Assembly: GCF_022394535.1 (NCBI RefSeq)
Contig: NZ_CP089414.1
Coordinates: forward strand, 5,208,001 to 5,272,000
Length of the DNA: 64,000 bases
Direction: 5' to 3'
From: Dyella terrae
GTDB taxonomy: Bacteria; Pseudomonadota; Gammaproteobacteria; Xanthomonadales; Rhodanobacteraceae
Shown in pieces: positions 11,415-64,000 of the stretch; the first letter of the stretch is position 1; each line of letters begins with the position of its first letter. The translations under genes were made by a program, and so were the position numbers. Under the pieces are notes generated by a model. It saw only the letters and a list, made by a program, of their open reading frames with translations. It did not search any database and had not been told where the DNA came from.

Positions 11415-11492
11415 GGCCTGATTCTATGTCTGGTTTGGGTCACTGTGTCACTAGCTGAAATGTGATAGCCGGATGTGACAGCCCAGGCAGGG

Positions 11493-47500: not shown

Positions 47501-47526
47501 TTTCCTATCCTCGAATAATCGATCAT

Positions 47527-48216
47527 TTAGAATCCAGGGTCGCCCGGCTGCGGTGGACGCCCTGCGCCGCGATCGTCATTGGTGGGTGGCCCGCCACCAG
47601 GCGGGCGGCCCCAATCATGAACATGTGGCTTACCTAAACCTCCGTGTGAATGATCCCAGTCTGTATCAACATCAGGGAAACCATCTTCGCCGTATCGGCG
47701 GGTCTGCCCTTTCTCACCCCTTTTATTCGGGCAGGTGACCTCGCTTCCGGGCTTCCCTGTTAGCGGGTTTGATTGCGACTGGTTGGTCGCATGCACAGTT
47801 ACCCAGTCCGCCGTTGCCAGGGCTGTGATGGCAGCGGGCGCGCAGAATATGTTGATCAAACATTCCACGGCCGGATCAACGCGAACTGGTTGCTGATAGT
47901 TGGGGGGCGCATCGAGGAGAGGCGGGGCCACCGGGCGGGGCTCGGGCAACGGTACCAGGAACTGCGTCCCGCTTGGGTCGACGTAATTCGATGGAGCTCC
48001 ATTTGCATAGAGATAAGAATTAAGACCGCCTTCGATTCCGATAGGGTCGCTTTGAATGTAACGCCCGGTCGCTACCTCATAGTCGCGATGGACGTTGTAA
48101 TTCAGCCCGCTCTCGGCGTCGTAATACTGGCCCGGTAACCACACCCTTGACGCACCCCTGCGCCGACGGCGGTGGCTTTCCTTGATGCGACGCGGTTTGG
48201 CGAGCGCAGCGAGCAT
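47527..48216 (-). CDS. Orphan Rhs C-terminal toxin tip T1
   Basis: 229 residues from the element-encoded ATG at 48216. The first 26 residues (MLAALAKPRRIKESHRRRRR...) come from the mobile element. Then follows the end of the Rhs core from LPGQYYDAESGLNYNV through ATGRYIQSDPIGIEGG and NYVDPSG, the usual self-cleavage boundary, and a variable toxin domain. That domain has a hydrophobic stretch, then a His-rich motif RRYGEDGFPDVDTDWDHSHGG...PHVHDWG, which suggests a metal-dependent nuclease or related enzyme. No Rhs shell is attached, so it can act only if recombined onto a full core. Confidence 0.8.
   Translation of the reverse strand: MLAALAKPRRIKESHRRRRRGASRVWLPGQYYDAESGLNYNVHRDYEVATGRYIQSDPIGIEGGLNSYLYANGAPSNYVDPSGTQFLVPLPEPRPVAPPLLDAPPNYQQPVRVDPAVECLINIFCAPAAITALATADWVTVHATNQSQSNPLTGKPGSEVTCPNKRGEKGQTRRYGEDGFPDVDTDWDHSHGGLGKPHVHDWGRPPGGGPPTNDDRGAGRPPQPGDPGF
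48110..48140. repeat. Recombination site S, copy at tip T1
   Basis: 31-bp sequence inside the Rhs core codons for LPGQYYDAESG, ending at GGTAACC on the plus strand. It matches the copies at 55782-55812 and 62594-62624 with two mismatches (A at 48123, C at 48131). Beyond 48140 the sequence is element, not Rhs core. Confidence 0.75.
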
Positions 48217-48316
48217 GATGCGGCGGTGCGTCCTGGCTAAAAATCCCTTGAGACGGTTTTGTACGCGCCCACGCCCACGCGGGCAAGCGCGGGCCGCAGG
48301 GCGTGCGACGGGGGTA

Positions 48317-49312
48317 TCAGTCGGAGGCGCGGGCCAGCTTGGCGGCCGGGTGCGTGGCCGTGTGGATCTCTTTGAGCTTGCCGATGGAGACGTGCGTGTA
48401 GATCTGCGTGGTGTCCAGCCGCTCGTGGCCCAGCAGCTCCTGGATGTAGCGGATGTCCGCGCCGTTCTCCAGCATCTGCGTGGCCATCGTGTGCCGCAGC
48501 AGATGGCAGGCGCCGCGCTGACGCACGCCGGCCGCTTCCAGATACCGGCGCACGGTGGTGGCCAGCCCGTTGTTGCCCAGGCGCTGCCCGAAGCGGTTGA
48601 GGAAGAGCGCGGTTTCATGCGCGTCGATCACCAACTGCGGGCGCGCCTGATCCAGATACCGGCGCACCCAGGCCAGCGCACGCTCCCCGATCGGCACGAG
48701 GCGGTCCTTGCCGCCTTTGCCCTGACGCACGCGCACGACGCCGTGCACGAAGTCCAGATCGAAGATCGAGAGGTTACGTGCTTCCTGTCGCCGCACGCCG
48801 GTGGAGTACAGCAGTTCCAGCAGCGCCCGGTCGCGCAGGCCTTGCACGTCCTCGACGTCCGGCAGGGCCAAGAGGGTGTCCATCTGCTCGGCCTGCAGCC
48901 CTTCGGGCAGTGTCACGCGCGGCGCGCGTGGCAGGTCCAGATCGGCCGCCGGGTTGGTCGGGATGTGGTGATGCTTCACCAGCCACCTAAACCAGTGGCG
49001 TAGATGCGTCACGGCCAAGGCTTGGCCACGCAGGCTCAGCGGCTCGCCGTTGGCCTTGCGCCACTGGAAGAGATGGCGCTGGTAGCGTTCCAGGATCGGC
49101 AAGGTGATCTCGGCGGGCCGCGCCAAGCCGCGATCCATGCACCACGCCAGGAAGACGGCCAGCGTTTGCCGGCGGGCACGCAGCAGCTCTTCGCTGTAGC
49201 CCAGGGCCACCATCACCTCCAGATACCGGCGCATCCAGGCCGCCATGCTGTCCGGTGGGCTGGGGGCTTCCAGCAACCGGCGGTGTTCGCCGTAATGACC
49301 GGCCCGTGGCAT
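48317..49312 (-). CDS. Tyrosine recombinase/integrase of unit 1
   Basis: 331 residues. The N-terminal SAM-like DNA-binding domain (about 22-115) precedes a catalytic domain with all active-site residues: Arg174 in STGVRRQE, Lys in GKGGKDR (about 199-202), His270-x-x-Arg273 in HLLRH, His296 in LGHERLD and the nucleophile Tyr305 in TQIYTHV. Related to XerC/XerD. It starts 3 bases after the primase stop, so they form an operon. The protein is identical to that of unit 2. Its 3' end lies about 180 bases from site S, as expected for an integrase next to its attachment site. Confidence 0.95.
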   Translation of the reverse strand: MPRAGHYGEHRRLLEAPSPPDSMAAWMRRYLEVMVALGYSEELLRARRQTLAVFLAWCMDRGLARPAEITLPILERYQRHLFQWRKANGEPLSLRGQALAVTHLRHWFRWLVKHHHIPTNPAADLDLPRAPRVTLPEGLQAEQMDTLLALPDVEDVQGLRDRALLELLYSTGVRRQEARNLSIFDLDFVHGVVRVRQGKGGKDRLVPIGERALAWVRRYLDQARPQLVIDAHETALFLNRFGQRLGNNGLATTVRRYLEAAGVRQRGACHLLRHTMATQMLENGADIRYIQELLGHERLDTTQIYTHVSIGKLKEIHTATHPAAKLARASD

Positions 49313-49315
49313 CGC

Positions 49316-52300
49316 TTACGCGCCTCGCATCGCGCGGTACGACGCCTCGCTACGATGCGACGGCGCGGTCTCCGTCCCGCGATGCGTAGTGGATGGACGA
49401 GCTGCCACTAAAACGGATGAGGCCGCATCGTCGTTGGGCTGCGCCGCGATCACGCCGGACCGATGCTCCCCCGCCACGGCACCGACCGCACCACGACCGC
49501 TGTCCGACCGATCACGGGATGCCCCCGACCGATCTGCCGTCGTAGTGGTGTCCAGCGTCGCCACGTCCACCAAGCCGATCAGCTGACGGTGCGTGTCATG
49601 CACATCGCCGGTAAACGCCAGTTCGTAGTGGAAGCGCGTGCCGGTGCGATGCACGATCAGGTATTCGTGATCTTCCAGCCGCGCCAGATGCAGCTTGAGC
49701 TGCGTGTCGCCGTGCCCGGTCGCATCGCGCAGTTCGCGCCGGGTAAACCGCACCTGCGAGCGGGCCAAGCCCTGCGCCTGCTGGCACCCTTCGACGTAGG
49801 TCACCACGTCGCCCAGCACGCGGCGCGTCTGCGGCGGCAGGTCATCGAGCGAGCGGCCCAGCACCTCGCCGGCCAAGCGGTTGGCCAGCGCGATGTCGGC
49901 CAGCGTCACCTCGATGTATTCCAGCCGGCCGGCGCGCTGGATCGGGCGCTGGTACTGGTGCAGCAAGGCGATGGCGTCGATCAGCGTCAGGTACTTCGCG
50001 TGATCGCGGCGCAGGCGTGGGGATTCGCTGCGGAAGGTCAGACGCTCCGCATACGGGTTCACCACGGCCAGCGGTCGCAGCAAGCGTTGTGCGTTCTGAT
50101 GCAGTGCACGGATGTCGCTAGAGGTCTGCGCGGCCAACAAGCCTTCCAGCGTGCGCGCCTGCCGCTGCCGGCGATGGATCGCCTCGGTCTGCTCGCGGCT
50201 TTCGTTGATGGTGAGCACGAGGCAGCGGTTAAGCAGTTCCTCGTCGATCACGATGGCCGTCGTCGTCAGGAAGAGCATCACCGGCCCTTCGACGCGGTAT
50301 TCCTCGGTGACCAGTTTGCCGGTGGTCGGGTCTTTGCCGGTACTGGCGATGGTCAGCTCGCCCTGCGATTGCAGCAGTTTCAGTGCGTAAGCCGCTTGGC
50401 GCACGCCTTCTTCTTCCGCGATGGCGAGGATCTTGTGCTTGAGGTCGCCTTCGCCGAGGTAAAACAGCGATTGCCCGGTCATCGCCGAGTAGTGCACGCG
50501 CTGCTCGTCCGGCATCAGCGCGAGCAGCGTGTCCATCACGGTGGATTTGCCGGCGGCACTGGTGGACTGGATCAGGATCGCGAGCGGCTTGTCGAGCCGG
50601 CGCGACACGCAGGCCAGATAACCCACCAGTGCGTTGTGGTCTTCGCCCACCACGCCCAGCGTGGCCACGTCCTCCATGATGCGCTCGATCAGCGCCGGAT
50701 CACGCAGCAAGGCCATCGCGGCATCCTGCTGTTCGGGCGATACCTCGGGCGTGGCTGTGGCGGCGGTTTTTGGCGACTGTCGCGCACGGATCAGCTCATC
50801 CTGGCGCAGCTCCACTACGCGCAGCAGCTTGGCCAGATCCTCTTTCATCGCTTCTTCCGTCATGCCCAGCTCGATGCTGGCCTGCCGGCACCATCCCTGA
50901 CGCTGCCGCGCGGCGTACAGCTCCACCGTGTCGATGTGCAGATACGCGGCGCGCTGCACCTTGATCCACACCTTGAGCTGCTCGTACCCGCTGTTTTTCT
51001 CGATGCCACGCACCACGTACGCGCGATCGTCCAGCGTCACGCGCAGCTCGCGTTCGTCCACCTCCACCGGCAGCGACGGCGCGGCCGGCGGCAAGGGCGA
51101 GGCGGCTAAAACGGGAAGCTCCGGTGCAGGTTCCGGTGCCAGCTCGGGTGCCGGCGACGCGGCGATAGTGGGCGACACGTCCGCTGCACTGTCGCATGCG
51201 ACACTCGGCGTCGTGATCGGGGTCGGTGCCCCGTTGCCGATCCACGTGGCCGAGCGGATCACTACGCCTAAGCTCTGGCTGGCCGGCGTCACCTTCAGCG
51301 CGTAGTCGTTCGCATCGAGCCCGTGCGGGAAGCGGCAGCGGTAACAGGCGATGCCCTCGGCCATCAGGCGGGTGGCCAGTTTCTCGGCCGCCGCATCACC
51401 CGCGGCATCGCGGTCATACGCGATCAGCACGCGCTCGGTGCCGTAGCGCTTAAACGCGGCTAAGTGATCGGCGGTAAATCCTTCGACGCCATAGGACGCA
51501 GTGACGTTGCGGTAGCCGGCGCACCAGAAGGTCATGGCGTCGATCAGCGCTTCGCACAGGATGATCTCGCGATGCTCCTGCACGGCGGCAAGGTTCCACA
51601 GGCCGCGATGCGGCCCCGGCAGGTACAGGTGCAGCGGCGTACCGCTGCGCAGATTAGGCGTGATCTTGCGGCCGTACAGCTCGGTGATGTCGCCGTGCTC
51701 GTCCCACACCGGGATCACCAGCGAGCCATTCAAGTGCTCGTGGCCGGAGTCGCGCAGCAGGCCCACGGCCTGCAGGCGGGCACGGATTTCCCCGCCGGTT
51801 TTGCGGTTTTTCTCCGGCAGGCGCAGACCCAGCGTGCGGTTGGCAAAGCCCAGCCGGAAGCGCTCGATCAGCTCGGGGTGATTGAGGCCGCGCGCGGCCA
51901 GATAAGCCAGCGCTTCGGGGCTTTGCTTCAAGGTGTCGTGGTAGTAATCGACCACCTGGTGCAGCAGGGCTTTGTCATCGGCTTCGGTGCTGACCGGCGC
52001 CGGCAGCTTCGTCACCGTCGAGCGGCGCACGCCATCGCCGGTCGCGAGCGTGGTCACGCCTTCGCGCAGCCGCTCCACCGCGTGCCGGAAGCTGATGCCT
52101 TCGCTCTTCATCACCCAATCGATCGCCGTGCCGCCCGTCTGACACGCGCCCAGGCAGTGCCACAGGTTCTTCGCCGGCGACACGACCAGCGAGGGCGTCT
52201 TGTCGTTGTGGAAGGGGCAGCGGCCGATCCAGTCCGCGCCGTGGCGGGCCAGCTCGATGCCGCGCGCTTCAACCAGCCGTTGCACCGACACCTCCGTTTT

Positions 52301-52336
52301 CAGGCGCTCGATCTCGTGCTCGGGGATGCGGGCCAT
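49316..52336 (-). CDS. Primase-helicase-like replication protein of unit 1
   Basis: 1006 residues. A DnaG-type CHC2 zinc finger comes first (Cys40, His43, Cys61, Cys65 in RCPFHNDKT...CLGACQTGG), then a Toprim domain (about 255-345: Glu in ILCEALIDA, acidic AYDRDAAGD). A proline-rich linker is followed by a P-loop ATPase domain with Walker A STSAAGKST near residue 596 and a helix-turn-helix-like C-terminal part. This is the pattern of replication proteins of satellites and integrative elements. ATG at 52336 gives the same length as in unit 2. Divergent from the XRE gene. Confidence 0.92.
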   Translation of the reverse strand: MARIPEHEIERLKTEVSVQRLVEARGIELARHGADWIGRCPFHNDKTPSLVVSPAKNLWHCLGACQTGGTAIDWVMKSEGISFRHAVERLREGVTTLATGDGVRRSTVTKLPAPVSTEADDKALLHQVVDYYHDTLKQSPEALAYLAARGLNHPELIERFRLGFANRTLGLRLPEKNRKTGGEIRARLQAVGLLRDSGHEHLNGSLVIPVWDEHGDITELYGRKITPNLRSGTPLHLYLPGPHRGLWNLAAVQEHREIILCEALIDAMTFWCAGYRNVTASYGVEGFTADHLAAFKRYGTERVLIAYDRDAAGDAAAEKLATRLMAEGIACYRCRFPHGLDANDYALKVTPASQSLGVVIRSATWIGNGAPTPITTPSVACDSAADVSPTIAASPAPELAPEPAPELPVLAASPLPPAAPSLPVEVDERELRVTLDDRAYVVRGIEKNSGYEQLKVWIKVQRAAYLHIDTVELYAARQRQGWCRQASIELGMTEEAMKEDLAKLLRVVELRQDELIRARQSPKTAATATPEVSPEQQDAAMALLRDPALIERIMEDVATLGVVGEDHNALVGYLACVSRRLDKPLAILIQSTSAAGKSTVMDTLLALMPDEQRVHYSAMTGQSLFYLGEGDLKHKILAIAEEEGVRQAAYALKLLQSQGELTIASTGKDPTTGKLVTEEYRVEGPVMLFLTTTAIVIDEELLNRCLVLTINESREQTEAIHRRQRQARTLEGLLAAQTSSDIRALHQNAQRLLRPLAVVNPYAERLTFRSESPRLRRDHAKYLTLIDAIALLHQYQRPIQRAGRLEYIEVTLADIALANRLAGEVLGRSLDDLPPQTRRVLGDVVTYVEGCQQAQGLARSQVRFTRRELRDATGHGDTQLKLHLARLEDHEYLIVHRTGTRFHYELAFTGDVHDTHRQLIGLVDVATLDTTTTADRSGASRDRSDSGRGAVGAVAGEHRSGVIAAQPNDDAASSVLVAARPSTTHRGTETAPSHRSEASYRAMRGA

Positions 52337-52399
52337 AAAACGGGTCTCCGGCCAAAAGCCTGTCAAGAGGGGCGACTAAAAAATAACTCGATAGCAGAG

Positions 52400-52416
52400 T
52401 ACTCATATTCTGAGTA
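52400..52416. promoter_or_regulatory. Operator-like inverted repeat of unit 1 (TACTCA-5-TGAGTA)
   Basis: Perfect 6-bp arms with a 5-base spacer between the divergent primase and XRE genes. The matching place in unit 2 has TACCCG-5-CGAGTA, so the inner bases changed together in both arms. Probable operator of the adjacent XRE protein. Confidence 0.6.
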
Positions 52417-52447
52417 TAGTCAACCAAGGTCCAGCGGAGTGCCTCCT

Positions 52448-52837
52448 ATGCTCGGTGCAACTTTTCAGCATCCGATGCCCATGGCAGCTAAAGAAAAACT
52501 CTTCTATGAGCAGCTCGGTCGGCGGATTGCCGAGCGCCGCAAGGCAGCGGACATCACGCAGGTAGAGCTGGCCAAGATCCTGGGCGTGGCTCAGCAGACG
52601 ATGGCCCACTACGAGGGCGGCGTGTCCCGCATCGCCGTGGCCTTGCTACCGCCCTTGGCCAGGGCGTTAAACACGACGGTCGAGGATTTGCTCGGCGAGG
52701 ACAGCAAGCGCGCCGGCAAACGAGGACCCGCATCGAAGCTGCAACAGCAGCTCGATCAGGTCAGCCAGCTTCCCAAGGCGCAGCAGAAGTTCGTCAGTCA
52801 GATGCTCGACACGGTGCTGCAGCAAGCGGGCCACTGA
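52448..52837 (+). CDS. XRE family regulator of unit 1
   Basis: 129 residues. HTH motif ITQVELAKILGVAQQTMAHYEGG (about residues 37-59), then a conserved GKRGPASKLQQQLDQVSQLPKAQQKFVSQMLDTVLQQ tail that may be a dimerisation helix. Divergent from the primase gene, hence a likely repressor of replication and integration genes. GGAG lies about 10 bases before the ATG; a later Met (MAAKEK) is possible. Only about 70 percent identical to its unit 2 counterpart, while the integrase is identical. Confidence 0.88.
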   Translation: MLGATFQHPMPMAAKEKLFYEQLGRRIAERRKAADITQVELAKILGVAQQTMAHYEGGVSRIAVALLPPLARALNTTVEDLLGEDSKRAGKRGPASKLQQQLDQVSQLPKAQQKFVSQMLDTVLQQAGH

Positions 52838-52880
52838 GCGGTTAAAAGATAACGATTCGGCTCTCGATAGCCTGTCGCAT

Positions 52881-52927
52881 AAACCTACCTCGCAGGTCGC
52901 GTGAGCGGCCTGTGAGGTAGGTTTTTT
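52881..52927 (+). terminator. Rho-independent terminator of the XRE gene, unit 1
   Basis: Stem AAACCTACCTCGCAGG / CCTGTGAGGTAGGTTT (one mismatch) around TCGCGTGAGCGG, followed by T6. The same structure is at 60558-60605 in unit 2. Confidence 0.88.
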
Positions 52928-52940
52928 CTATGTCTAAAAA

Positions 52941-52956
52941 TATTAGCGGGCTAATA
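52941..52956. repeat. Palindrome TATTAGC-GG-GCTAATA
   Basis: Perfect 7-bp arms, conserved in unit 2 at about 60620-60635. AT-rich arms in GC-rich DNA; candidate operator or structural site of the element. Confidence 0.5.
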
Positions 52957-52965
52957 ATTCCAGCC

Positions 52966-52982
52966 TGACCCGAGTCGGGTCA
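52966..52982. repeat. 17-bp palindrome flanking the cargo gene (left copy)
   Basis: TGACCCGAGTCGGGTCA, a perfect palindrome about a central G. It is repeated in direct orientation at 53643-53659 on the far side of the 198-residue gene and present only once in unit 2 (60644-60660). Confidence 0.8.
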
Positions 52983-53030
52983 CCGCTATGGCTCCGCTCC
53001 CTGGCACCCGTATGATCTAACCAGGTCACC

Positions 53031-53627
53031 ATGAGGATGCTCAGAGCTATGCGTTTAACCGGATTGGAGCCGCTCTATCGCAGCATGCAGGCGCAGGGCA
53101 TCGGGCGGGCCAAGTTTCGCTACACCCTTAATCACCTGACCTTTGAGTGCCTGTTTTTTGCCGACACGGCACCGTACGAGCTAGTGATGGGCTGCCTGGG
53201 CCATAACTTCGTTATTTTCATGGACGTCAGTGCAACGTTCGAGATCAAGCCCTTCATCGAGCCCAAGGAGATTTTCTATGCCTTGCGCAAAGCGTTATTT
53301 CAAAACGCCGGCAGTGGTCAGCACCTGAGCGTCACGGACTTCTTCAAGGAGTTCAACCAGCATATTCCACCGCACACTTCGCCACGCGAAGCGGCCACGG
53401 CAGACGACGTGGTGCGGTACTACCCGGATATCGAGGAGTCAGCCAAGCGCTATTTCTGCGGGTGGCAAGACAACAGCATCAAGGGCGAGAGTGTGTCGCC
53501 AAAAAACCTGGCCAAGACCCGTCGCTTGCAGGGTCAGCGCGCCCATGATTTTTCACGGCGACGTAATCAGAGCACCCGTTGGACGCATCGGCCGGAGCGG
53601 GCGATCGCTTTCTTCATTCCCGAGTAA
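53031..53627 (+). CDS. DUF6037-like accessory protein, present only in unit 1
   Basis: 198 residues. MRLTGLEPLYRSMQAQGIGRAKFRYTLNHLTFECLFFADTAPYELVMGCLGHNFVIFMDV resembles DUF6037, a family I associate with accessory and defence loci; the match is from memory and moderate. The C-terminus is basic (LAKTRRLQGQRAHDFSRRRNQ). Met codons at 53031 and 53049 are alternative starts. The gene lies between two copies of a 17-bp palindrome and is missing from unit 2, so it is cargo gained or lost as a block. Confidence 0.65.
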   Translation: MRMLRAMRLTGLEPLYRSMQAQGIGRAKFRYTLNHLTFECLFFADTAPYELVMGCLGHNFVIFMDVSATFEIKPFIEPKEIFYALRKALFQNAGSGQHLSVTDFFKEFNQHIPPHTSPREAATADDVVRYYPDIEESAKRYFCGWQDNSIKGESVSPKNLAKTRRLQGQRAHDFSRRRNQSTRWTHRPERAIAFFIPE

Positions 53628-53642
53628 TCGGCTAACAAGGCG

Positions 53643-53659
53643 TGACCCGAGTCGGGTCA
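53643..53659. repeat. 17-bp palindrome flanking the cargo gene (right copy)
   Basis: Identical to 52966-52982. Together they bracket about 660 bases carrying the DUF6037-like gene. Confidence 0.8.
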
Positions 53660-53668
53660 CGCCAGCCT

Positions 53669-54016
53669 TTAGGCTTTTCCCTGCCACACCTCGACACCGA
53701 TACGTTTCAGTTCGCTATGCACGCCGCGCATGTGCTGGAGACCGGCCACCGATCGAAGCAGCAGTAGGATTTCGAGCAGCATGTTTGATGTATCGGCCTG
53801 CGATGCTTCAGGACTCGACGCCGGGGCCTCGCGGTCGGCCAGGTCCTCGACCGTTTGACGCAGCATCATCATCGCCTCGGCCGTATTGTCGCCGGCCGCC
53901 AATCGCTTCTTGAGGTACGTGGACACCGGCAGCGGCTCGGGGAACGCCTGAGCAGCCATCGCCTCGTAGCGCGCATACACCTCGTCACTGAAGCGGATCG
54001 GGACTATCTTCGCCAT
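53669..54016 (-). CDS. Ribbon-helix-helix type element protein, unit 1
   Basis: 115 residues starting MAKIVPIRFSDEVYARYEAMAAQAFPEPLPVSTYLKKRLAAGD, a plausible MetJ/Arc-like N-terminal DNA-binding fold, with a helical C-terminal half (MLLEILLLLRSVAG, VHSELKRIGVEVW). Comparable proteins act in plasmid copy control, partition or as relaxosome accessory factors; the role here is not known. The upstream region has direct repeats of GTATAGC (about 54044-54060), a likely autoregulatory site. Confidence 0.75.
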   Translation of the reverse strand: MAKIVPIRFSDEVYARYEAMAAQAFPEPLPVSTYLKKRLAAGDNTAEAMMMLRQTVEDLADREAPASSPEASQADTSNMLLEILLLLRSVAGLQHMRGVHSELKRIGVEVWQGKA

Positions 54017-54404
54017 CGTTGTTTGCTTCCACATGCACCGTATAGCGGCATGTATAGCAAACGATCGCGCTGAGAAGCCATCGATTTCGCTTTTCGTATA
54101 GACGGCCATATACGCAGGCATTTGCATCATATTTGCAATTGTTCTTGCGCGTCATGCACTTGCTGCACCTGACTAGGTGCGTATGGTGTATGGCGGATCG
54201 GCTTAAGGGATAAGGGGCCTAAGCCGGCCAAAAACACCCGTAAAAAGCCGCTCCGCGCACGCCAAGAAGGTCAAGCATGATCACGTGGCCCAGCGGGCCA
54301 CGTCGCGATGCACGGATGATGCAGCGGTGATGCAACGATGGTGCACGGGTAACGTATCGTGATGCATGGATGTGGCAAACATGATGCAGCGATGAGGCAA
54401 CCGA
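54017..54404. other. Candidate origin region of unit 1 (hairpin plus 11-bp iterons)
   Basis: 388 bases without a gene. Next to the ribbon-helix-helix gene are GTATAG repeats. In the middle is a GC hairpin (54283-54303, ACGTGGCCC / GGGCCACGT, AGC loop). From 54307 there are repeats of GATGCA or close variants at 54307, 54318, 54329, 54340, 54361, 54372, 54383 and 54394, almost all 11 bp apart, ending at the stop codon of the 88-residue protein. The design is that of an iteron origin. Confidence 0.65.
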
Positions 54405-54668
54405 TCAGTGCGAGGCCGACGCGTAAGCGGCTTTGATCAACATGCCGTAGAGCAAGCGGACCCGCGTAGTTACGGCGCGGTCGCCGGCTGTGACAGCGTC
54501 GATTTCGTCGCGCAGTTGAGACATCACCCCTTCCAGATCAGCCAGGTGTTGCGTATCAGGCTGGCTGCGTGAGGCTTCCTTCCGGATCTCTGCCGAGAGC
54601 TTGCCACGGCAATGGAAGAGGATTTCTCGGGCGCTCGACATCTCGGCGTCATCGGCGGCGTAGCTCAT
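54405..54668 (-). CDS. Conserved 87-residue helical protein of the element, unit 1
   Basis: Starts MSYAADDAEMSSAREILFHCRGKLSAEIRKEASRSQPD and continues with a long helix and a basic C-terminus (RAVTTRVRLLYGMLIKAAYA). No family recognised. It has a very strong ribosome site (AGGAGGAAGG) just upstream and is the first element gene after the cargo boundary. Its position could suit an excision or replication accessory factor, which is inference. Confidence 0.7.
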   Translation of the reverse strand: MSYAADDAEMSSAREILFHCRGKLSAEIRKEASRSQPDTQHLADLEGVMSQLRDEIDAVTAGDRAVTTRVRLLYGMLIKAAYASASH

Positions 54669-54686
54669 CAACCTTCCTCCTGGTGC

Positions 54687-54724
54687 GTGACATCGGTAGC
54701 GGATTATCGCGCTACCGATGTCAC
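54687..54724. repeat. Inverted repeat at the cargo boundary, unit 1
   Basis: Perfect 15-bp arms GTGACATCGGTAGCG / CGCTACCGATGTCAC with an 8-base loop. It is shared with unit 2 (61656-61695), where the loop is longer and different. Homology between the units ends just beyond it, inside the last codons or just after the stop of the cargo gene. It may be a terminator or a folded recombination site. Confidence 0.7.
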
Positions 54725-54737
54725 GTGCCCGTGGTGC

Positions 54738-54932: not shown

Positions 54933-54977
54933 TGCTGATTGCACGATTCCTCACCATCACCGCAGCCGCGACACCGT

Positions 54978-55888: not shown

Positions 55889-55988
55889 GGGGCGGCGGTG
55901 CGTCCTGGCTAAAAATCCCTTGAGACGGTTTTGTACGCGCCCGTGCCTACGCGGGCAAGCGCGGGCCGCAGGGCGTGCGACGGGGGTA

Positions 55989-56984: not shown

Positions 56985-56987
56985 CGC

Positions 56988-59900
56988 TTACGCGCCTCGC
57001 ATCGCGCGGTACGACGCCTCGCTACGATGCGACGGCGCGGTCTCCGTCCCGCGATGCGTAGTGGATGGACGAGCTGCCACTAAAACGGATGAGGCCGCAT
57101 CGTCGTTGGGCTGCGCCGCGATCACGCCGGACCGATGCTCCCCCGCCACGGCACCGACCGCACCACGACCGCTGTCCGACCGATCACGGGATGCCCCCGA
57201 CCGATCTGCCGTCGTAGTGGTGTCCAGCGTCGCCACGTCCACCAAGCCGATCAGCTGACGGTGCGTGTCATGCACATCGCCGGTAAACGCCAGTTCGTAG
57301 TGGAAGCGCGTGCCGGTGCGATGCACGATCAGGTATTCGTGATCTTCCAGCCGCGCCAGATGCAGCTTGAGCTGCGTGTCGCCGTGCCCGGTCGCATCGC
57401 GCAGTTCGCGCCGGGTAAACCGCACCTGCGAGCGGGCCAAGCCCTGCGCCTGCTGGCACCCTTCGACGTAGGTCACCACGTCGCCCAGCACGCGGCGCGT
57501 CTGCGGCGGCAGGTCATCGAGCGAGCGGCCCAGCACCTCGCCGGCCAAGCGGTTGGCCAGCGCGATGTCGGCCAGCGTCACCTCGATGTATTCCAGGCGG
57601 CCGGCGCGCTGGATCGGGCGTTGGTACTGATGCAACAAGGCGATGGCGTCGATCAGCGTCAGGTACTTCGCGTGATCGCGGCGCAGGCGCGGGGATTCGC
57701 TGCGGAAGGTCAGACGCTCCGCATACGGGTTCACCACGGCCAGCGGTCGCAACAAGCGTTGTGCGTTCTGATGCAGTGCACGGATGTCGCTAGAGGTCTG
57801 CGCGGCCAACAAGCCTTCCAGCGTGCGTGCCTGCCGCTGCCGTCGATGGATCGCCTCGGTCTGCTCGCGGCTTTCGTTGATGGTGAGCACGAGGCAGCGG
57901 TTGAGCAGCTCCTCGTCGATCACGATGGCCGTCGTCGTCAGGAAGAGCATCACCGGCCCTTCGACGCGGTATTCCTCGGTGACCAGCTTGCCGGTGGTCG
58001 GGTCTTTGCCGGTACTGGCGATGGTCAGTTCGCCCTGCGATTGCAACAGTTTCAGCGCATAGGCCGCCTGGCGCACGCCTTCCTCCTCGGCGATGGCGAG
58101 GATCTTGTGCTTGAGGTCGCCTTCGCCGAGGTAAAACAGCGATTGCCCGGTCATCGCTGAGTAGTGCACGCGCTGCTCATCCGGCATCAGCGCGAGCAGC
58201 GTGTCCATCACGGTGGATTTGCCGGCGGCACTGGTGGACTGGATCAGGATCGCGAGCGGCTTGTCGAGCCGGCGCGACACACAGGCCAGATAACCCACCA
58301 GCGCGTTGTGGTCTTCGCCCACCACGCCCAGCGTGGCCACGTCCTGCACGATGCGCTCGATCAGTGCCGGATCGCGCAGCAAGGCCATCGCGGCATCCTG
58401 CTGTTCGGGCGACACCTCCGGCGCGGCCGCGGTGGCGGTTTTCGGGGCCTGTCGTGCACGGATCAGCTCATCCTGGCGCAGCTCCACCACGCGCAGCAGT
58501 TTGGCCAGATCCTCTTTCATCGCTTCTTCCGTCAGGCCCAGCTCGATGCTGGCCTGCCGGCACCATCCCTGACGCTGCCGTGCGGCGTACAGCTCCACCG
58601 TGTCGATGTGCAGATACGCGGCGCGCTGCACCTTGATCCACACCTTGAGCTGCTCGTAACCGCTGTTCTTCTCGATGCCGCGCACGATGTACGCGCGATC
58701 ATCCAGCGTCACGCGCAGTTCGCGTTCGTCCACCTCCACCGGCAGCGACGGTGCGGCCGGCGGCAAGGGCGAGGCGGCTAAAACGGGAAGCTCCGGTGCA
58801 GGTTCCGGTGCCGGCTCAGGTGCCGGCGACGCGGCGATGGTGGGTGGCACGTCGGCCGCACTGTCGCATGCGACACTCGGCGTCGTGATCGGGGCCGGCG
58901 CCCCGTTGCCGATCCACGTGGCCGAGCGGATCACTACGCCTAAGCTCTGGCTGGCCGGCGTCACCTTGAGCGCGTAGTCGTTCGCGTCCAGGCCGTGCGG
59001 GAAGCGGCAGCGGTAACAGGCGATGCCCTCGGCCATCAAGCGCGTGGCCAGTTTCTCGGCCGCCGCATCACCCGCGGCATCGCGGTCATACGCGATCAGT
59101 ACGCGCTCCGTGCCGTAGCGCTTAAACGCGGCTAAGTGATCGGCGGTAAACCCTTCGACGCCATAGGACGCGGTGACGTTGCGGTAGCCGGCGCACCAGA
59201 AGGTCATGGCGTCGATCAGCGCTTCGCACAGGATGATTTCGCGGTGCTCTTGCACCGCCTCGATGTTCCACAGGCCACGATGCGGCCCCGGCAGGTACAG
59301 GTGCAGCGGCGTGCCGCTGCGCAGGTTGGGCGTGATCTTGCGGCCGTACAGCTCGGTGATGTCGCCGTGCTCGTCCCACACCGGGATCACCAGCGAGCCA
59401 TTCAAGTGCTCGTGGCCGGAGTCGCGCAGCAGGCCCACGGCCTGCAGGCGGGCGCGGATTTCCCCGCCGGTTTTGCGGTTTTTCTCCGGCAGGCGCAGGC
59501 CCAGCGTGCGGTTGGCAAAGCCCAGCCGGAAGCGCTCGATCAGCTCCGGATGGTTGAGGCCACGCGAGGCCAGATAGGCCAGCGCTTCGGGGCTTTGCTT
59601 CAAGGTGTCGTGGTAGTAATCGACCACCTGGTGCAGCAGGGCTTTGTCATCGGCCTCGGTGCTGACCGGCGCCGGCAGCTTGGTCACCGTCGAGCGGCGC
59701 ACGCCATCCCCGGTCGCGAGCGTGGTCACGCCTTCGCGCAGCCGCTCCACGGCGTGCCGGAAGCTGATGCCTTCGCTCTTCATCACCCAGTCGATCGCCG
59801 TGCCGCCCGTCTGACACGCGCCCAGGCAGTGCCACAGGTTCTTCGCCGGCGACACGACCAGCGAGGGCGTCTTGTCGTTGTGGAAGGGGCAGCGACCGAT

Positions 59901-60008
59901 CCAGTCCGCGCCGTGGCGGACCAGCTCGATGCCGCGCGCTTCGACCAGCCGTTGCACGGAGATGTCCGTTTTCAGGCGCTCGATCTCGTGCTCGGGGATG
60001 CGGGCCAT
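56988..60008 (-). CDS. Primase-helicase-like replication protein of unit 2
   Basis: 1006 residues with CHC2 zinc finger, Toprim and P-loop ATPase domains as in unit 1. About 16 to 20 residues differ, scattered (for example TDISVQ for TEVSVQ near residue 14, NIEAVQ for NLAAVQ, and the Pro/Ala linker). Both copies are open and full length, so both elements may be able to replicate. Confidence 0.92.
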   Translation of the reverse strand: MARIPEHEIERLKTDISVQRLVEARGIELVRHGADWIGRCPFHNDKTPSLVVSPAKNLWHCLGACQTGGTAIDWVMKSEGISFRHAVERLREGVTTLATGDGVRRSTVTKLPAPVSTEADDKALLHQVVDYYHDTLKQSPEALAYLASRGLNHPELIERFRLGFANRTLGLRLPEKNRKTGGEIRARLQAVGLLRDSGHEHLNGSLVIPVWDEHGDITELYGRKITPNLRSGTPLHLYLPGPHRGLWNIEAVQEHREIILCEALIDAMTFWCAGYRNVTASYGVEGFTADHLAAFKRYGTERVLIAYDRDAAGDAAAEKLATRLMAEGIACYRCRFPHGLDANDYALKVTPASQSLGVVIRSATWIGNGAPAPITTPSVACDSAADVPPTIAASPAPEPAPEPAPELPVLAASPLPPAAPSLPVEVDERELRVTLDDRAYIVRGIEKNSGYEQLKVWIKVQRAAYLHIDTVELYAARQRQGWCRQASIELGLTEEAMKEDLAKLLRVVELRQDELIRARQAPKTATAAAPEVSPEQQDAAMALLRDPALIERIVQDVATLGVVGEDHNALVGYLACVSRRLDKPLAILIQSTSAAGKSTVMDTLLALMPDEQRVHYSAMTGQSLFYLGEGDLKHKILAIAEEEGVRQAAYALKLLQSQGELTIASTGKDPTTGKLVTEEYRVEGPVMLFLTTTAIVIDEELLNRCLVLTINESREQTEAIHRRQRQARTLEGLLAAQTSSDIRALHQNAQRLLRPLAVVNPYAERLTFRSESPRLRRDHAKYLTLIDAIALLHQYQRPIQRAGRLEYIEVTLADIALANRLAGEVLGRSLDDLPPQTRRVLGDVVTYVEGCQQAQGLARSQVRFTRRELRDATGHGDTQLKLHLARLEDHEYLIVHRTGTRFHYELAFTGDVHDTHRQLIGLVDVATLDTTTTADRSGASRDRSDSGRGAVGAVAGEHRSGVIAAQPNDDAASSVLVAARPSTTHRGTETAPSHRSEASYRAMRGA

Positions 60009-60071
60009 AAAACGGGTCTCCGGCCGGAAGGCTGTCAAGGGGAGCAACTAAAAAATAACCCGTTGGCAGAG

Positions 60072-60088
60072 TACCCGTAATACGAGTA
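60072..60088. promoter_or_regulatory. Operator-like inverted repeat of unit 2 (TACCCG-5-CGAGTA)
   Basis: Same place as 52400-52416 in unit 1, with one mismatch between the arms. The flanks (GCAGAG before, GTCAAC after) are conserved while the arms differ in step. Probable operator of this unit's XRE protein. Confidence 0.55.
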
Positions 60089-60119
60089 TTGTCAACTCGT
60101 CATCCGAGGATCAGGGTCT

Positions 60120-60515
60120 ATGCTCGCCAGCACATCCTTTCTGCCAGATAGCCTCATGGCCGCTGCTGACCGCGCCTTCTACGAACAACTTGGCCAACGT
60201 ATTGCCGAGCACCGCAAGGCGCATGGCATCACCCAGGTCGAGTTAGCCAAGACCCTGGGCATCGCCCAGCAGACACTGGCCCACTACGAGGGCGGGACGG
60301 TGCGTATCGCCGTTGCCACGCTCACGGTCGTGGCCAAGGCGCTGGAAGTCTCGATAGAGGATTTACTCGGTAGCTCGTCAGCAAAGACTGCCGGTAAGCG
60401 TGGACCCGCATCGCGGTTACAGCAGCAGCTAGATCAGATCAGTCAGTTGCCGCGTGCCAAGCAGAAGTTTGTCAGCCAGATGCTCGATACGGTGCTACAG
60501 CAAGCGAGTAGCTGA
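60120..60515 (+). CDS. XRE family regulator of unit 2
   Basis: 131 residues. HTH ITQVELAKTLGIAQQTLAHYEGG and the same Gln/Leu-rich tail as its unit 1 counterpart, with a diverged N-terminus (MLASTSFLPDSLMAAADRAFYEQLGQRI) and linker (LGSSSAKTAGKRGP). GAGGATC lies upstream of the ATG. Probable repressor of the divergent primase-integrase operon. Confidence 0.88.
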   Translation: MLASTSFLPDSLMAAADRAFYEQLGQRIAEHRKAHGITQVELAKTLGIAQQTLAHYEGGTVRIAVATLTVVAKALEVSIEDLLGSSSAKTAGKRGPASRLQQQLDQISQLPRAKQKFVSQMLDTVLQQASS

Positions 60516-60557
60516 GCAGCTAAAGATAACGATTCGGCTCTCGATAGCCTTTCGCAT

Positions 60558-60605
60558 AAACCTACCTCGCAGGTCGCGTAAGCGGCCTGTGAGGTAGGTT
60601 TTTTT
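60558..60605 (+). terminator. Rho-independent terminator of the XRE gene, unit 2
   Basis: Stem AAACCTACCTCGCAGG / CCTGTGAGGTAGGTTT with T7 following; one base of the loop differs from unit 1. Confidence 0.88.
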
Positions 60606-60643
60606 CTATGTCTAAAAATATTAGCGGGCTAATAATTCCAGCC

Positions 60644-60660
60644 TGACCCGAGTCGGGTCA
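60644..60660. repeat. 17-bp palindrome at the empty cargo slot, unit 2
   Basis: A single TGACCCGAGTCGGGTCA where unit 1 has two copies around the DUF6037-like gene. It may also act as a terminator between the convergent XRE and ribbon-helix-helix genes. Confidence 0.8.
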
Positions 60661-60669
60661 CGTCTGCCC

Positions 60670-61017
60670 TCAGGCTTTTCCTCGCCATACATCGACGCCG
60701 ATGCGCTGCAGTTCACTCTGCACAGCACGCACGCGGCCAGGATCGGCCACCGCACGTAGCAACAGCAGGATTTCGAGCTGCACGTTCGACGTGTCGGCCG
60801 GTGACGCATCGGGGCTCGCCGGAGCGGCCTCGCGGTCGGCCAGATCCTCGACCGTCTGACGCAGCATCATCATTGCTTCGGCCGTGTTGTCGCCGGCGGC
60901 CAGTCGCTTCTTGAGGTACGTGGACACCGGCAGCGGCTCGGGGAACGCCTGGGCGGCCATCGCTTCGTAGCGCGCATACGCCTCGTCACTGAAGCGGATC
61001 GGGACTATCTTCGCCAT
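60670..61017 (-). CDS. Ribbon-helix-helix type element protein, unit 2
   Basis: 115 residues, N-terminal 60 residues almost identical to the unit 1 copy (MAKIVPIRFSDEAYARYEAMAAQAF...), C-terminal part more diverged (QLEILLLLRAVADPGRVRAVQSELQRIGVDVWRGKA). Role in copy control or DNA processing is inferred. GTATAG direct repeats lie upstream near 61040-61060. Confidence 0.75.
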   Translation of the reverse strand: MAKIVPIRFSDEAYARYEAMAAQAFPEPLPVSTYLKKRLAAGDNTAEAMMMLRQTVEDLADREAAPASPDASPADTSNVQLEILLLLRAVADPGRVRAVQSELQRIGVDVWRGKA

Positions 61018-61373
61018 CGTTGTTTGCTTCCATATGCACTGTATAGCGGCATGTATAGCAAACGATCGCGCTGCGAAGCCATCGGTTTCGCCAAGCGTAT
61101 AGATGGCTATATACGCAGGCGTTTGCATCATATTTGCAATTGTTCTTGCGCGTCATGCACTTGCTTCACCTGACTAGGTGCGTATGGTGTATGGCGGATC
61201 GGCTTAAGGGTTAAGGGGCAAAAGCTGGCCAAAAACACCCATAAAAAGCCGATCCCTGCACGCCAAGAAGGTCAAACACGATCACGTGGCCCAGCGGGCC
61301 ACGTCGTGATGCACGGATGATGCAAAGATGCGGCAAAAGTGATGCAGCGATGATGCAAAAATGATGCAAGCGG
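61018..61373. other. Candidate origin region of unit 2 (hairpin plus 11-bp iterons)
   Basis: 356 bases without a gene. The GC hairpin is at 61284-61304. GATGCA or one variant occurs at 61308, 61319, 61330 (GCGGCA), 61341, 61352 and 61363, exactly 11 bp apart, ending at the stop of the 87-residue protein. Same design as unit 1 with fewer repeats. Confidence 0.7.
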
Positions 61374-61637
61374 TCAGCGTGATGTCGGCGCGTAAGCGTC
61401 TTTGATCAGCATGCCGTAGAGCAAGCGGACCCGCGTGGTTACGGCGCGGTCGCCGGCCGTGACGGCGTCGATTTCATCGCGCAGCTGGGACATCACCAGT
61501 TCCAGGTCAGCCAGGCGTTGCGCATCAGGCTGGCTGCGGGAGGCTTCCTTCCGGATCTCTGCCGAGAGCTTGCCACGGCAATGAAAGAGGATTTCCCGGG
61601 CGCTCGACATTTCAGCATCGTCGGTGGCGTAGCTCAT
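61374..61637 (-). CDS. Conserved 87-residue helical protein of the element, unit 2
   Basis: Counterpart of 54405-54668 with few changes (for example DAQRLADLELVMSQLRDEID, C-terminus KDAYAPTSR). Strong ribosome site AGGAGGAAGG. Function unknown. First backbone gene after the cargo boundary repeat. Confidence 0.7.
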   Translation of the reverse strand: MSYATDDAEMSSAREILFHCRGKLSAEIRKEASRSQPDAQRLADLELVMSQLRDEIDAVTAGDRAVTTRVRLLYGMLIKDAYAPTSR

Positions 61638-61655
61638 CAACCTTCCTCCTGGTGC

Positions 61656-61695
61656 GTGACATCGGTAGCGCCGTTCAGTTTGCTACCGATGTCAC
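61656..61695. repeat. Inverted repeat at the cargo boundary, unit 2
   Basis: Perfect 14-bp arms GTGACATCGGTAGC / GCTACCGATGTCAC with a 12-base loop. The outer arm contains the stop codon of the TPR gene. The loop differs from unit 1 while the arms are conserved. Confidence 0.7.
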
Positions 61696-62111
61696 GTGCT
61701 CGTGGTGCTTAACCAAGCCGTGGCGCGAGCAAGCTCATCCTCATAATCATCGAGATTCTTCGCTTCAGATTGGCGTAAAAACTCTTCAAACAAGGCCCTT
61801 GCAACTCGGTTTTTGCCGATATTGGAGAAGTGCTCGGCCAGATCAAATAGCGCAAAGAGATTGGATGCATCGACGCTCAAAATGTGTCGGTAGTGGCGCC
61901 GAGCCGCCTTCAATCGAACATCCGCCGGCATGACGTCATCCTCGGAGAACGCGTCCGTTTCCAACGCATTCCCGTAGAGCCGATGTGCCTCTATATCGTC
62001 AGGATTTTGCCGGAGAAGTTCATCCAGCCCCTTGTAAGCAACGGAGAACTGACCGGCGAGGCTCGCAGCCCTCGCACGCTCTAGACGCCTGTATCGCAGA
62101 TCGTTAGCCAT
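61692..62111 (-). CDS. TPR-like protein, probable immunity protein for Rhs tip T3
   Basis: 139 residues with tetratricopeptide-like helical pairs: RARAASLAGQFSVAYKGLDELLRQNPDDIEAHRLYGNAL and LSVDASNLFALFDLAEHFSNIGKNRVARALFEEFLRQ. It starts 10 bases after the Rhs stop, the place of a cognate immunity gene. The immunity role is inferred from position; the stop lies within the boundary inverted repeat. Confidence 0.65.
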   Translation of the reverse strand: MANDLRYRRLERARAASLAGQFSVAYKGLDELLRQNPDDIEAHRLYGNALETDAFSEDDVMPADVRLKAARRHYRHILSVDASNLFALFDLAEHFSNIGKNRVARALFEEFLRQSEAKNLDDYEDELARATAWLSTTST

Positions 62112-62121
62112 GACTAGATAG

Positions 62122-64000
62122 TTACATTTGAGTCTTGTCGATCACTGTGCCGCCCAACCCTTGATACATGCTGCACCCGATGGGGTTCCCTTCTTCGCAG
62201 AGCTGGCCCATTTGCATCTCCAACACTTCGAAGAATAGAGGTGGACACTCTGCTCGCGTGAAATTTCGCTTGGCAACCTTTAGCCATGCACGTACCTGCC
62301 TTAGCCTGTTGGCATTGAGCGCACCGCTCCTTTCGGCATCTTCAGCCGCCTTGATGGCGCGCCTCACCTCATCAGGATTGGACTGGGCATTGAGGCGAGG
62401 CGTCAACGGATCGTTACCACCTATGTTGTTTGTGCCCTGAAGTTTGCTCGTTCCGAGAGGGTCAAAGAAATTGAGCGGACTGCTATCAACGTACGCAAAC
62501 GTGCTCAACCCACCGTCGAGACCGATGGGATCACTCTGCAAGTAACGCCCGGTCGCGGCCTCATAGTCGCGGTTGACGTTATTTGCCAAGCCGCTCTCGG
62601 CGTCGTAGTACTGGCCGGGTAACCGTAGACCGTATACAAAACCATTCGCACTCGTCGGTTGCTGCTCACCAAAGGCATTCGTCTGATAGGCAAGCTGCCA
62701 GATGGTGTTACCACTTGTGTTTGCGATTGCGCGCGGGGTGCCCAGCCCATCCGCATGCACATAGCTCACCGTGCTCACGCCACTCGCCGTGTCGACGGTC
62801 GCCACCGGTAGATCACCGAGCCAGACATAGTCGCGCGAGTTGCTGCCGTACTCCCCGATAAGCTGACTAGCCTCATCGTAAGCAAACCGCTGGCTGCTGG
62901 CGGACGGGAACGTCGCCACCTTCGCTGTGCGCTGCCCCAGCACGTTGTACGTATACGTCCCCACCGTACTGCCATCCCGCTGCACCACCGTCATGCGGTT
63001 ACGCCCGTTGTAGCCATACCCAAAGGTGTCACCACCGATCACGCTACCCGTGGTGTTGCCGTTGGCGTCGTAGGTGCGGGCGGCGTTGCCGATGGCGGTG
63101 AGGTGATGGGTTCCGGTTTGGTAGGTATAGGCTCCCGTGGCGAGACCATTGCCCGTCTTGCTCAGGCGGTCGCCGGTCTTGCTGTACGTATAGGTTTCTT
63201 CCGGGTTGGTGCTGGCGTCGTAGAGGCCGGTGAGGCGGTAGAGCGGGTCGTAGGCGTAGGTTTCCGTGGCCGGGCTGGCGCCGGAGGCGTTGCCCAGGGC
63301 GGTGATGTTGCCCATGGCATCGCGGGCAAAGTGCAGGTTGAGCGCGGGGCTCACCACATCGGTGACGGCGTAGTTGGCGTCGTAGGTGCGCGTGATGGTT
63401 TGGCCGTTACCCAGCGTGTAGCTGGCGATGGGGCCAAAGGGCAGGTAGCTGATGGCGGTGACCACATTGCCGGCGCCTGCACCACTGGTGCCCGGGGGCA
63501 GGGCGGTGACGCCGCTGATACGGCCGGCCGCGTCGCGGCTGTACTGGATGGAGGTGCCGGCCGGTGTCAGCGTGCTGGCCAGGCGATCTGCCAGGGTGTA
63601 GCCGTAGGCGGTGACATCCGTGACGGTGCCCTGTGTCTGGCTCTTGCGGGTGACGTTGCCGTGGGCGTCGTAGCAGTACACCGTGGTCACGGCGGTTTCG
63701 ATGATGCGGGTGAGGCGACCGACCGGATAGGAGGCCGGGCAGCCCGTGACGCTGTTGGCCTCGTCGTAGGCATAGGCCACATTGAGCGTGCCGTCCGCAT
63801 AAGTGGTGGCGGTGCGACGGTTGAGCGCGTCGTACGTGCTATTGCTCACCACGCCCTTGGCATCCGTGCGCTGGGTGACGTTGCCGCCCGCGTCGTACAC
63901 ATAGGTCGTGCTGCCGGTGTCAGGACTCTGCACGCCAGTGGCGTTGCCCAGGCCGTCGTAGCTGTAGGTGGTGTTGAGTCCATCCGGATCGCTCACACCT
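62122..64000 (-). CDS. Rhs/YD-repeat polymorphic toxin, 3' part with tip T3 (5' end outside window)
   Basis: At least 626 residues, open to the right edge. Many YD repeats (YDGLGNATG, YDAGGNVTQRTDAKG, YDALNRRTATTYADG, YDPLYRLTG) form the Rhs shell. The Rhs core end is GLRLPGQYYDAESGLANNVNRDYEAATGRYLQSDPIGLDGG, then FFDPLGT at the self-cleavage boundary. The tip T3 is about 100 residues: helical, basic (VRRAIKAAEDAERSGALNANRLRQVRAWLKVAKRNF) with a Cys-containing end (CPPLFFEVLEMQMGQLCEEGNPIGC). No toxin family recognised. Delivery would be by a type VI or other secretion system not in the window. Confidence 0.92.
   Translation of the reverse strand, partial: GVSDPDGLNTTYSYDGLGNATGVQSPDTGSTTYVYDAGGNVTQRTDAKGVVSNSTYDALNRRTATTYADGTLNVAYAYDEANSVTGCPASYPVGRLTRIIETAVTTVYCYDAHGNVTRKSQTQGTVTDVTAYGYTLADRLASTLTPAGTSIQYSRDAAGRISGVTALPPGTSGAGAGNVVTAISYLPFGPIASYTLGNGQTITRTYDANYAVTDVVSPALNLHFARDAMGNITALGNASGASPATETYAYDPLYRLTGLYDASTNPEETYTYSKTGDRLSKTGNGLATGAYTYQTGTHHLTAIGNAARTYDANGNTTGSVIGGDTFGYGYNGRNRMTVVQRDGSTVGTYTYNVLGQRTAKVATFPSASSQRFAYDEASQLIGEYGSNSRDYVWLGDLPVATVDTASGVSTVSYVHADGLGTPRAIANTSGNTIWQLAYQTNAFGEQQPTSANGFVYGLRLPGQYYDAESGLANNVNRDYEAATGRYLQSDPIGLDGGLSTFAYVDSSPLNFFDPLGTSKLQGTNNIGGNDPLTPRLNAQSNPDEVRRAIKAAEDAERSGALNANRLRQVRAWLKVAKRNFTRAECPPLFFEVLEMQMGQLCEEGNPIGCSMYQGLGGTVIDKTQM
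62594..62624. repeat. Recombination site S within the intact Rhs core
   Basis: 31 bp coding for the LPGQYYDAE part of the core, identical to 55782-55812. On the high-coordinate side true Rhs core continues (YGLR), unlike at the other two copies where element sequence takes over right after GGTAACC. Confidence 0.8.

Follow-up and report, generated by a model that had tools for sequence, protein, structure and literature searches.

The window analysed here is the whole 64,000-nucleotide stretch of Dyella terrae contig NZ_CP089414.1 between positions 5,208,001 and 5,272,000, and it contains an Rhs toxin locus in which two copies of a unit encoding an integrase and a primase, elements A and B, lie between alternative toxin tips (Table 1). 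Read along the minus strand, the order is Rhs core, a short site designated S, tip T3, a TPR immunity-type gene, element A, S, tip T2, element B, S, tip T1 and an immunity-type gene. The Rhs frame (62122-63999, minus strand) is one open frame of 1529 amino acids (aa) that extends past the window edge, its upstream portion being contained in locus L007. Its tip, T3, matched no Pfam family. Displaced tips with core ends follow an intact core gene, which is the arrangement of a C-terminal displacement array. An earlier note on this DNA had described three Rhs core-ends, each with a different tip and an immunity-type gene, separated by two near-identical elements. The three core-ends, the different tips and the two elements were all recovered, but the immunity gene of T2 is uncertain, because the gene at the left end of element B is a short Xre/ParS-antitoxin-like open reading frame (ORF) that scored below cut-off.

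The three copies of S (GGTTACC...CCGAGAG) start at 62624, 55812 and 48140, and the integrase stop codon is separated from S by 176 bp in both elements. In successive 25-bp windows, identity between the main core and the T2 copy was 0.28, 0.24, 0.24 and 0.28 before S, and 1.0, 0.64, 0.52 and 0.52 from S; for the T1 copy the values were 0.36, 0.24, 0.24 and 0.28, followed by 0.92, 0.72, 0.84 and 0.76. The longest exact match at S was 31 bp (core and T2) or 17 bp (core and T1). Compared with each other, the two element copies were 0.92-1.0 identical upstream of S. Identity of the core to the displaced copies steps at S from 0.24-0.36 to 0.92-1.0, as expected from the note's statement that the integrase side of each element stops exactly there. 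The companion statement, that the other side joins the end of an immunity-type gene and has no S, also holds: similarity between A and B begins at 61714 and 54743, at the very end of the immunity-type genes, with no S copy. Direct repeats, that is copies of S, are found at both ends of the unit in the window, at a second locus of the same genome (L008) and in E. coli. One contig (L010) breaks off 7 bases into S, as would be expected of an assembly that meets a repeated site.

A related element was found in 59 of 5426 complete E. coli genomes. At an rhs locus upstream of ybgA (strain no107 and others), the occupied order is core, S, T1, immunity gene, SymE, helix-turn-helix (HTH) gene, primase, xerC, S, then T2, immunity gene, SymE, HTH gene, primase, xerC, S, T0 and immunity gene. 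T0 was present in 87 genomes, T1 in 45, T2 in 43, and the integrase in 55 at 195 places. Three strains (ECO8855, 40EC and TK3887; L121-L123) carry empty alleles with the core directly on T0 (3/3), and occupied alleles (L119, L124, L126) have the same flanks plus 13.3 kb at S, comprising two tip-immunity-element units. Alignment of ECO8855 with JSWP021 gave 99.37% identity up to S and 99.95% from S onward; because the two blocks overlap by 71 bp, the occupied allele amounts to the empty allele plus 13.3 kb at S. The overlap recurred in each of nine empty/occupied comparisons (left block 98.7-99.4%, right block 98.6-99.96%). Against the right junction, identity of the empty allele was 0.16-0.40 before S and 1.0 after it, and against the left junction 1.0 before S, dropping from 0.88 to 0.44 after it. 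T1 and T2 lie inside the extra DNA and T0 is the tip of the empty allele. The proximal tips belong to the moving DNA, whether by insertion or by excision.

The remaining genomes were compared by annotation only, the three empty and three occupied strains being the ones aligned. Among 40 T0 rows listed of the 87 genomes, 23 were absent from the 55 integrase genomes (a complete list), and all 23 had T0 under an Rhs-core protein; the other 17, from integrase genomes, showed T0 as two hypothetical proteins (13) or under both labels (4). One of the 23 (C11) has a CdiA-type element elsewhere. The same family also occupies a second E. coli rhs locus and, with another integrase, a frameshifted cdiA. 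In C11, the frameshifted cdiA locus (L118) holds several VENN pre-toxin fragments behind one element.

These alleles are the decisive evidence on how such arrays arise. The note had proposed that a circle of S, tip, immunity gene and backbone, inserted at S, gives core-S-new tip-immunity-backbone-S-old tip, and the E. coli pair of core-S-T0 and core-S-T1-element-S-T2-element-S-T0 has exactly this form. Tip-less integrative elements might instead have inserted between tips already arrayed, and since there is no S on the immunity side of the backbone, a backbone-only unit can indeed be drawn. Its insertion would require the tips to have been in place beforehand, but the three empty alleles have no T1 or T2 between core and T0, and the tandem units of genome G186 (see below) repeat the tip together with the element. 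Tip-less insertion is contradicted by the E. coli empty alleles, and we reject it as having next to no probability.

The Dyella genome itself contains a second case. Searching it with the integrase revealed a 51%-identical relative at 0.7 Mb (L008), accompanied by a 58%-identical primase. The target at L008 is a different toxin gene, with a frame of at least 1415 aa and LysM and Ig-type domains. A 28-bp stretch occurs identically in this toxin core and again some 970 bp past the integrase, where the second and different tip starts. Integrase, site and toxin thus all differ from those of the window and the layout is the same; it recurs in many proteobacteria. Two further features were noted at L008: at 10990-11760 the integrase is followed by a gene pair of DUF1778-like/GNAT type (named by eye), and 14088-14222 holds a remnant of the left end of a further element (ParS-like). 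The window's Rhs core matched 16 of 61 genomes at E<=1e-100. Three of the 16 were inspected, the nearest ones (G050, G052 and G058, of the window's genus, 85-90% identity), and in all three the core runs straight into other tips. No integrase or primase match was found in the stretches examined, and no integrase match genome-wide at E<=1e-60; these are element-free relatives of the core and not same-species empty alleles of the window. T1 matched 30 of the 61 genomes at E<=1e-10, mostly through the core end, and among the matches listed only G099, besides the window, extends past query residue 100 (115-199, 57%).

To define the family more broadly, genome contigs were scanned with a primase alignment, and the best 80 (75 loci) of 157 coding matches were retained. 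Rhs core-end motifs were present in 20 of the 75 loci, every one on the strand of the element. Twenty-four loci were testable, having 5 kb or more before the primase, and 19 of these follow a polymorphic toxin supported by domains or motifs, of the Rhs, Rhs-LysM, SpvB/Tc-B-like or CdiA (haemagglutinin/VENN/DUF637) type (L010, L016, L022, L025, L026, L028, L032, L033, L040, L043, L049, L050, L054, L057, L063, L070, L072, L077 and L084; L040 and L049 by core-end motif). Three more lie behind an orphan tip, as judged by eye (L030, L046, L056). In Catenovulum (L046, 2505-8468), opposite-orientation genes, transposon-like by eye, separate tip and element, suggesting extra cargo. A search with the window family matched 11 of 233 genomes at E<=1e-60. 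The note had asked whether the integrase-primase pair always abuts an Rhs core at LPGQYYDAES. It does not, as both sub-site and target class differ by integrase group, CdiA and LysM types included, and some homologues sit elsewhere.

Integrase relationships also tend to follow target class. On a quick-search tree of 80 distinct integrases, 49 of them labelled, the target classes required 5 changes (the least possible being 2), compared with a mean of 15.0 after shuffling, and none of 200 shuffles was as low, although near-copies favour such clustering and the labels come partly from reading of neighbours (for L020, L046, L056, L062, L064 and L069, of tip starts). The eight CdiA-type rows form one side of a branch (SH-like approximate likelihood ratio test, 97), and the integrase of E. 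coli cdiA clusters with Pectobacterium, Photorhabdus and Prodigiosinella integrases, away from those at E. coli rhs. The Rhs rows and the LysM rows each require 4 changes, so integrase and target match by tendency and not strictly.

Arrays and circular records complete the picture. The complete genome G186 has three tandem units of about 7.3 kb, 99.5-99.7% identical and with the same tip, ending in a last S-like stretch (137 bp, 72%) before other sequence; such an array is expected if one circle entered repeatedly. A Lonsdalea populi plasmid (unnamed1, L130) is a circular record of 11,289 bp that consists of the element and two headless tips starting with an Rhs core end; it encodes nuclease-type tip domains, immunity-type genes, SymE, an HTH protein, a full-length primase alongside a truncated primase-like frame, xerC and a DinJ/RelE-type pair. 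Another circular record, from Shigella (L132; 8,758 bp), contains the same kind of unit as E. coli S10. Of 45 whole-contig loci, 5 have ends that overlap each other, in one case by just 17 bp. The element was also seen on large plasmids of Pseudomonas, Enterobacter and Salmonella (L131, L134, L135), where it follows haemagglutinin-type genes in L131 and L134. Those of Enterobacter and Salmonella are typed as conjugative, which could be a means of spread.

Together, the above observations very probably reflect an integrative element with attachment site S that swaps toxin tips by insertion of a circle into a resident toxin gene. Site S would be a brief segment of coding sequence close to where the delivery core of a polymorphic toxin ends, and the cargo would be whatever follows S in such genes, namely core end, toxin tip and immunity gene. 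A circle of S, tip, immunity gene, HTH gene, primase and integrase would be recombined into S of the resident gene, presumably catalysed by its own integrase, after which the core would read in frame into the new tip, leaving the old one and its immunity gene behind the integrase at a second S. Repeated rounds would yield arrays like that of the window. The primase and the iteron-like repeats may replicate the circle, the displaced immunity gene may keep protecting the cell, and circles may pass between cells. As far as sequence comparison can tell, the interpretation is supported as to structure and outcome, the comparison covering the layout, the S repeats, empty and occupied alleles and recurrence in several toxin classes.

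Several observations weigh against this interpretation. Some orphan tips have no element behind them (G171), and the L132 circle closes in Rhs core fragments and not at S, which fits homologous recombination. On a rival reading that follows this published model (Jackson et al., 2009; PMC2935791), circles formed between core copies would be reinserted by RecA, and the integrase-primase unit would be a passenger between tips; orphan tips with longer core fragments and no element also speak for it, and the window core and its T1 copy still share 115 bp at 80%. Shared sequence is scarce at the other junctions, however: 34 bp at 97% (31 exact) followed by decay for core and T2, 28 exact bp at L008, and 71 bp at 83% between left and right S in E. 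coli. Neither the T1 nor the T2 copy resembles the core 5' of S, both window copies have their junction at an identical base, 176 bp past the integrase, and RecA would not require integrase groups to match target classes as they tend to do. We consider homologous recombination an improbable source of these loci.

Other contrary points concern the family itself. Two of the 24 testable loci (L061, L082) lie behind neither toxin nor orphan tip. In the sequence examined, no integrase match was found in L030, L072, L082 and L084, sequence ending soon after the primase in L030 and L084; when these four are left out, the tally is 17 behind a toxin, 2 behind an orphan tip and 1 behind neither, of 20. 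Of the 35 plasmid records with a primase match, 13 are from Leptospira, and the one opened (L. weilii, L133) has a 42.6%-identical primase and a tyrosine recombinase in a plasmid backbone beside AAA-ATPase/ParB genes and a replication gene, with no tip. It is a possible ancestor type. Homologues without an adjacent tip or at unrelated sites, which the note would have counted against its proposal if regular, are, among the loci examined, these two loci and one plasmid, compared with 19 of 24 behind a toxin. The Leptospira plasmid, the PRK01287/XerC-like nature of the protein and the iteron-like repeats would also agree with a recombinase of the plasmid type that resolves dimers of a small replicon and enters toxin genes as an occasional by-product. 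Against this origin stand the recurrent position behind toxin cores (19 of the 24 testable loci), the clustering of target classes on the integrase tree, and the in-frame joining of tip and core seen in the window and in L124; we regard it as very improbable.

Individual arrays raise further reservations. In G186, the long upstream frame (1841 aa) stops before S, with a core-end motif at S, and the middle primase is split in two frames. The proximal xerC is annotated as frameshifted in all four E. coli arrays opened (L119, L124, L125 and L126), the distal one being intact, and the rhs core of L119 is annotated as frameshifted too. The empty E. coli state could stem from excision rather than absent insertion, and circular records and self-overlapping contigs may be collapsed arrays. 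As to order of events, the note would have taken an empty-site relative with tips that predate the elements as refuting its proposal; the three empty alleles of E. coli do not show this, T1 and T2 being absent between core and T0.

A wider proposal finds somewhat more in its favour than against it. Widespread autonomous elements would target the core-tip joint of polymorphic toxins, with integrase lineages dedicated to delivery classes (Rhs, Rhs-LysM, CdiA), and would be a main engine of tip diversity in proteobacteria. On this view the weapon could be switched, since the old toxin would return upon excision, and displaced immunity genes would be kept as protection. An element that carries tip, antidote, integrase and replication gene would explain both tandem orphan arrays and the retained old immunity gene, and the integrase-primase pair could serve as a marker for finding new toxin-immunity pairs.

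The integrases of A and B (331 aa) are 100% identical and the primases 98%. Tyrosine recombinases have a catalytic set of R, K, HxxR, H and Y. The window integrase, a match to the Phage_integrase Pfam family, carries it (TGVRRQE, QGKGGKDR, HLLRH, LLGHE, QIYTH), and the R, K, H, R, H and Y columns are invariant between it and the L008 integrase. It scored 117 bits with the integron-integrase model TIGR02249, compared with a cut-off of 265. The ATPase-like C-terminal part of the primase gave weak matches only, below cut-off. By ORF lists and record annotation, the small units contain HTH, primase, integrase, toxin-antitoxin, tip and immunity genes, and conjugation genes are absent from the unit by the same sources, no conjugation models having been run. 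None of 133 phage records with a primase match covers 80% of it, the matches being partial; none of 24 viral contig stretches that fitted the search patterns encodes a relative; and an Rfam scan of 46500-62700 at the gathering threshold gave no match.

Iteron-like repeats beat shuffled sequence in 7 of 61 rows (some loci counted twice), two of which (L070, L076) are not 11/22-phased. Phased 11/22-bp spacing was seen in elements A and B and, with other sequences, in L008, L018, L021, L032, L043 and L054, and element A, L032 and L043 failed the shuffle rule. Phased repeats before the primase suggest a replication origin in some members only, because few rows beat the shuffles and several phased loci fail the rule. 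Element B differs from A by about 676 bp including a DUF6037 gene (window 52966-53659), flanked by two copies of the palindrome TGACCCGAGTCGGGTCAC; element A has a single copy and no DUF6037 gene, so that the stretch appears to be a small insertion of its own.

Table 1. Features of the Rhs locus and its two elements, in minus-strand order (window coordinates).
Feature	Position	Strand	Basis or remark
Rhs delivery core, 3' part, intact	62625..64000	-	RHS_repeat/RHS Pfam, Rhs_assc_core; gene start outside window (L007)
Site S on Rhs core, attL-like	62591..62624	-	identity step at 62624
T3, tip currently in frame with Rhs core	62122..62590	-	ORF list
TPR immunity-type gene	61692..62111	-	ORF list, family scan; final codons within element A sequence
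Element A backbone	55813..61714	-	repeat of element B
Small backbone ORF, element A	61374..61640	-	ORF list
11/22-bp phased TGATGCA repeats, iteron-like, element A	61307..61369	.	repeat analysis
Small backbone ORF, element A	60670..61131	-	ORF list, family scan; no family match
HTH regulator, element A	60120..60515	+	HTH_3
CHC2/Toprim primase, element A	56988..60047	-	family scans made on element B copy
Tyrosine recombinase (integrase), element A	55989..56984	-	NF002331/PRK01287 family; protein identical to that of element B
Site S behind element A, middle copy	55779..55812	-	identity step
T2, displaced tip with Rhs core end	55175..55778	-	Rhs_assc_core
Xre/ParS-antitoxin-like ORF, element B left end	54738..54935	-	NF049845, below cut-off
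Element B backbone	48141..54743	-	repeat of element A
Small backbone ORF, element B	54405..54671	-	ORF list
11/22-bp phased repeats, iteron-like, element B	54307..54401	.	repeat analysis
Small backbone ORF, element B	53669..54130	-	ORF list
DUF6037 gene, element B only	53031..53627	+	PF19503
HTH regulator, element B	52448..52837	+	repeat of element A counterpart; start read by eye
Primase, element B	49316..52366	-	family scan
Integrase, element B	48317..49312	-	family scan; protein identical to that of element A
Site S behind element B, attR-like	48107..48140	-	identity step
T1, oldest displaced tip by proposed reading	47527..48106	-	ORF list
Immunity-type gene of T1	47084..47500	-	ORF list, family scan; no family match

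Parts of this behaviour are familiar from other systems. Integrons also combine a tyrosine recombinase, circles and stepwise arrays with the newest cassette first; here, the mobile unit itself carries the integrase, the site belongs to the coding sequence of the target, and integron-integrase models score far below cut-off. Some integrative elements and prophages insert inside a gene and supply its 3' end, but here the end supplied belongs to another toxin, complete with immunity gene, and would alter the activity of the product. Shufflons use a tyrosine recombinase to vary the C-terminus of one protein by inverting local segments, whereas here new ends arrive on a mobile unit.

Further parallels come from toxin loci, in each case as far as the accessible parts of the papers go. 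Polyimmunity loci adjoin XerC/D genes (Zhang, 2012; PMC3482391), and they and the rAID systems of Bacteroidales (PMC12247911) have, like the present loci, a tyrosine recombinase beside immunity genes; they hold immunity arrays, whereas here tips are in frame with a delivery gene and a primase is present. For Neisseria subflava, a short circle bearing a vgrG copy was described together with dif/XerCD sites (PMC10210955). That case is similar in having, close to type VI effector genes, a circle and sites for a tyrosine recombinase, but it relies on host XerCD at dif, with no tip-borne integrase and no site inside a toxin core in the text available. Orphan cdiA-CT/cdiI modules are displaced tip-immunity pairs in arrays (Poole, 2011; PMC3150448; PMC4927057), among which integrase and transposase genes occur and site-specific recombination was suggested (PMC4927057); unlike the present comparison, the accessible text of these papers defines no element, site or link between integrase and core junction.

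The note knew of no described system of this kind. This has to be qualified, since the outcome, displacement, is published, with homologous recombination proposed as its route (PMC2935791); no dedicated tip-swapping element was found described in titles and abstract starts among the open-access papers listed, a weak absence, as these were part of the matching papers and lacked most subscription journals. In the available text of Jackson et al. (2009; PMC2935791), the Rhs core acquires new tips, old ones are displaced downstream and a circular intermediate is proposed, with no integrase known to be associated with Rhs. Tip exchange in Rhs and CdiA is thus known, and the 2009 paper left its agent open. 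Here, an integrase and a primase travel with the tip, and a dedicated element would make the question testable.

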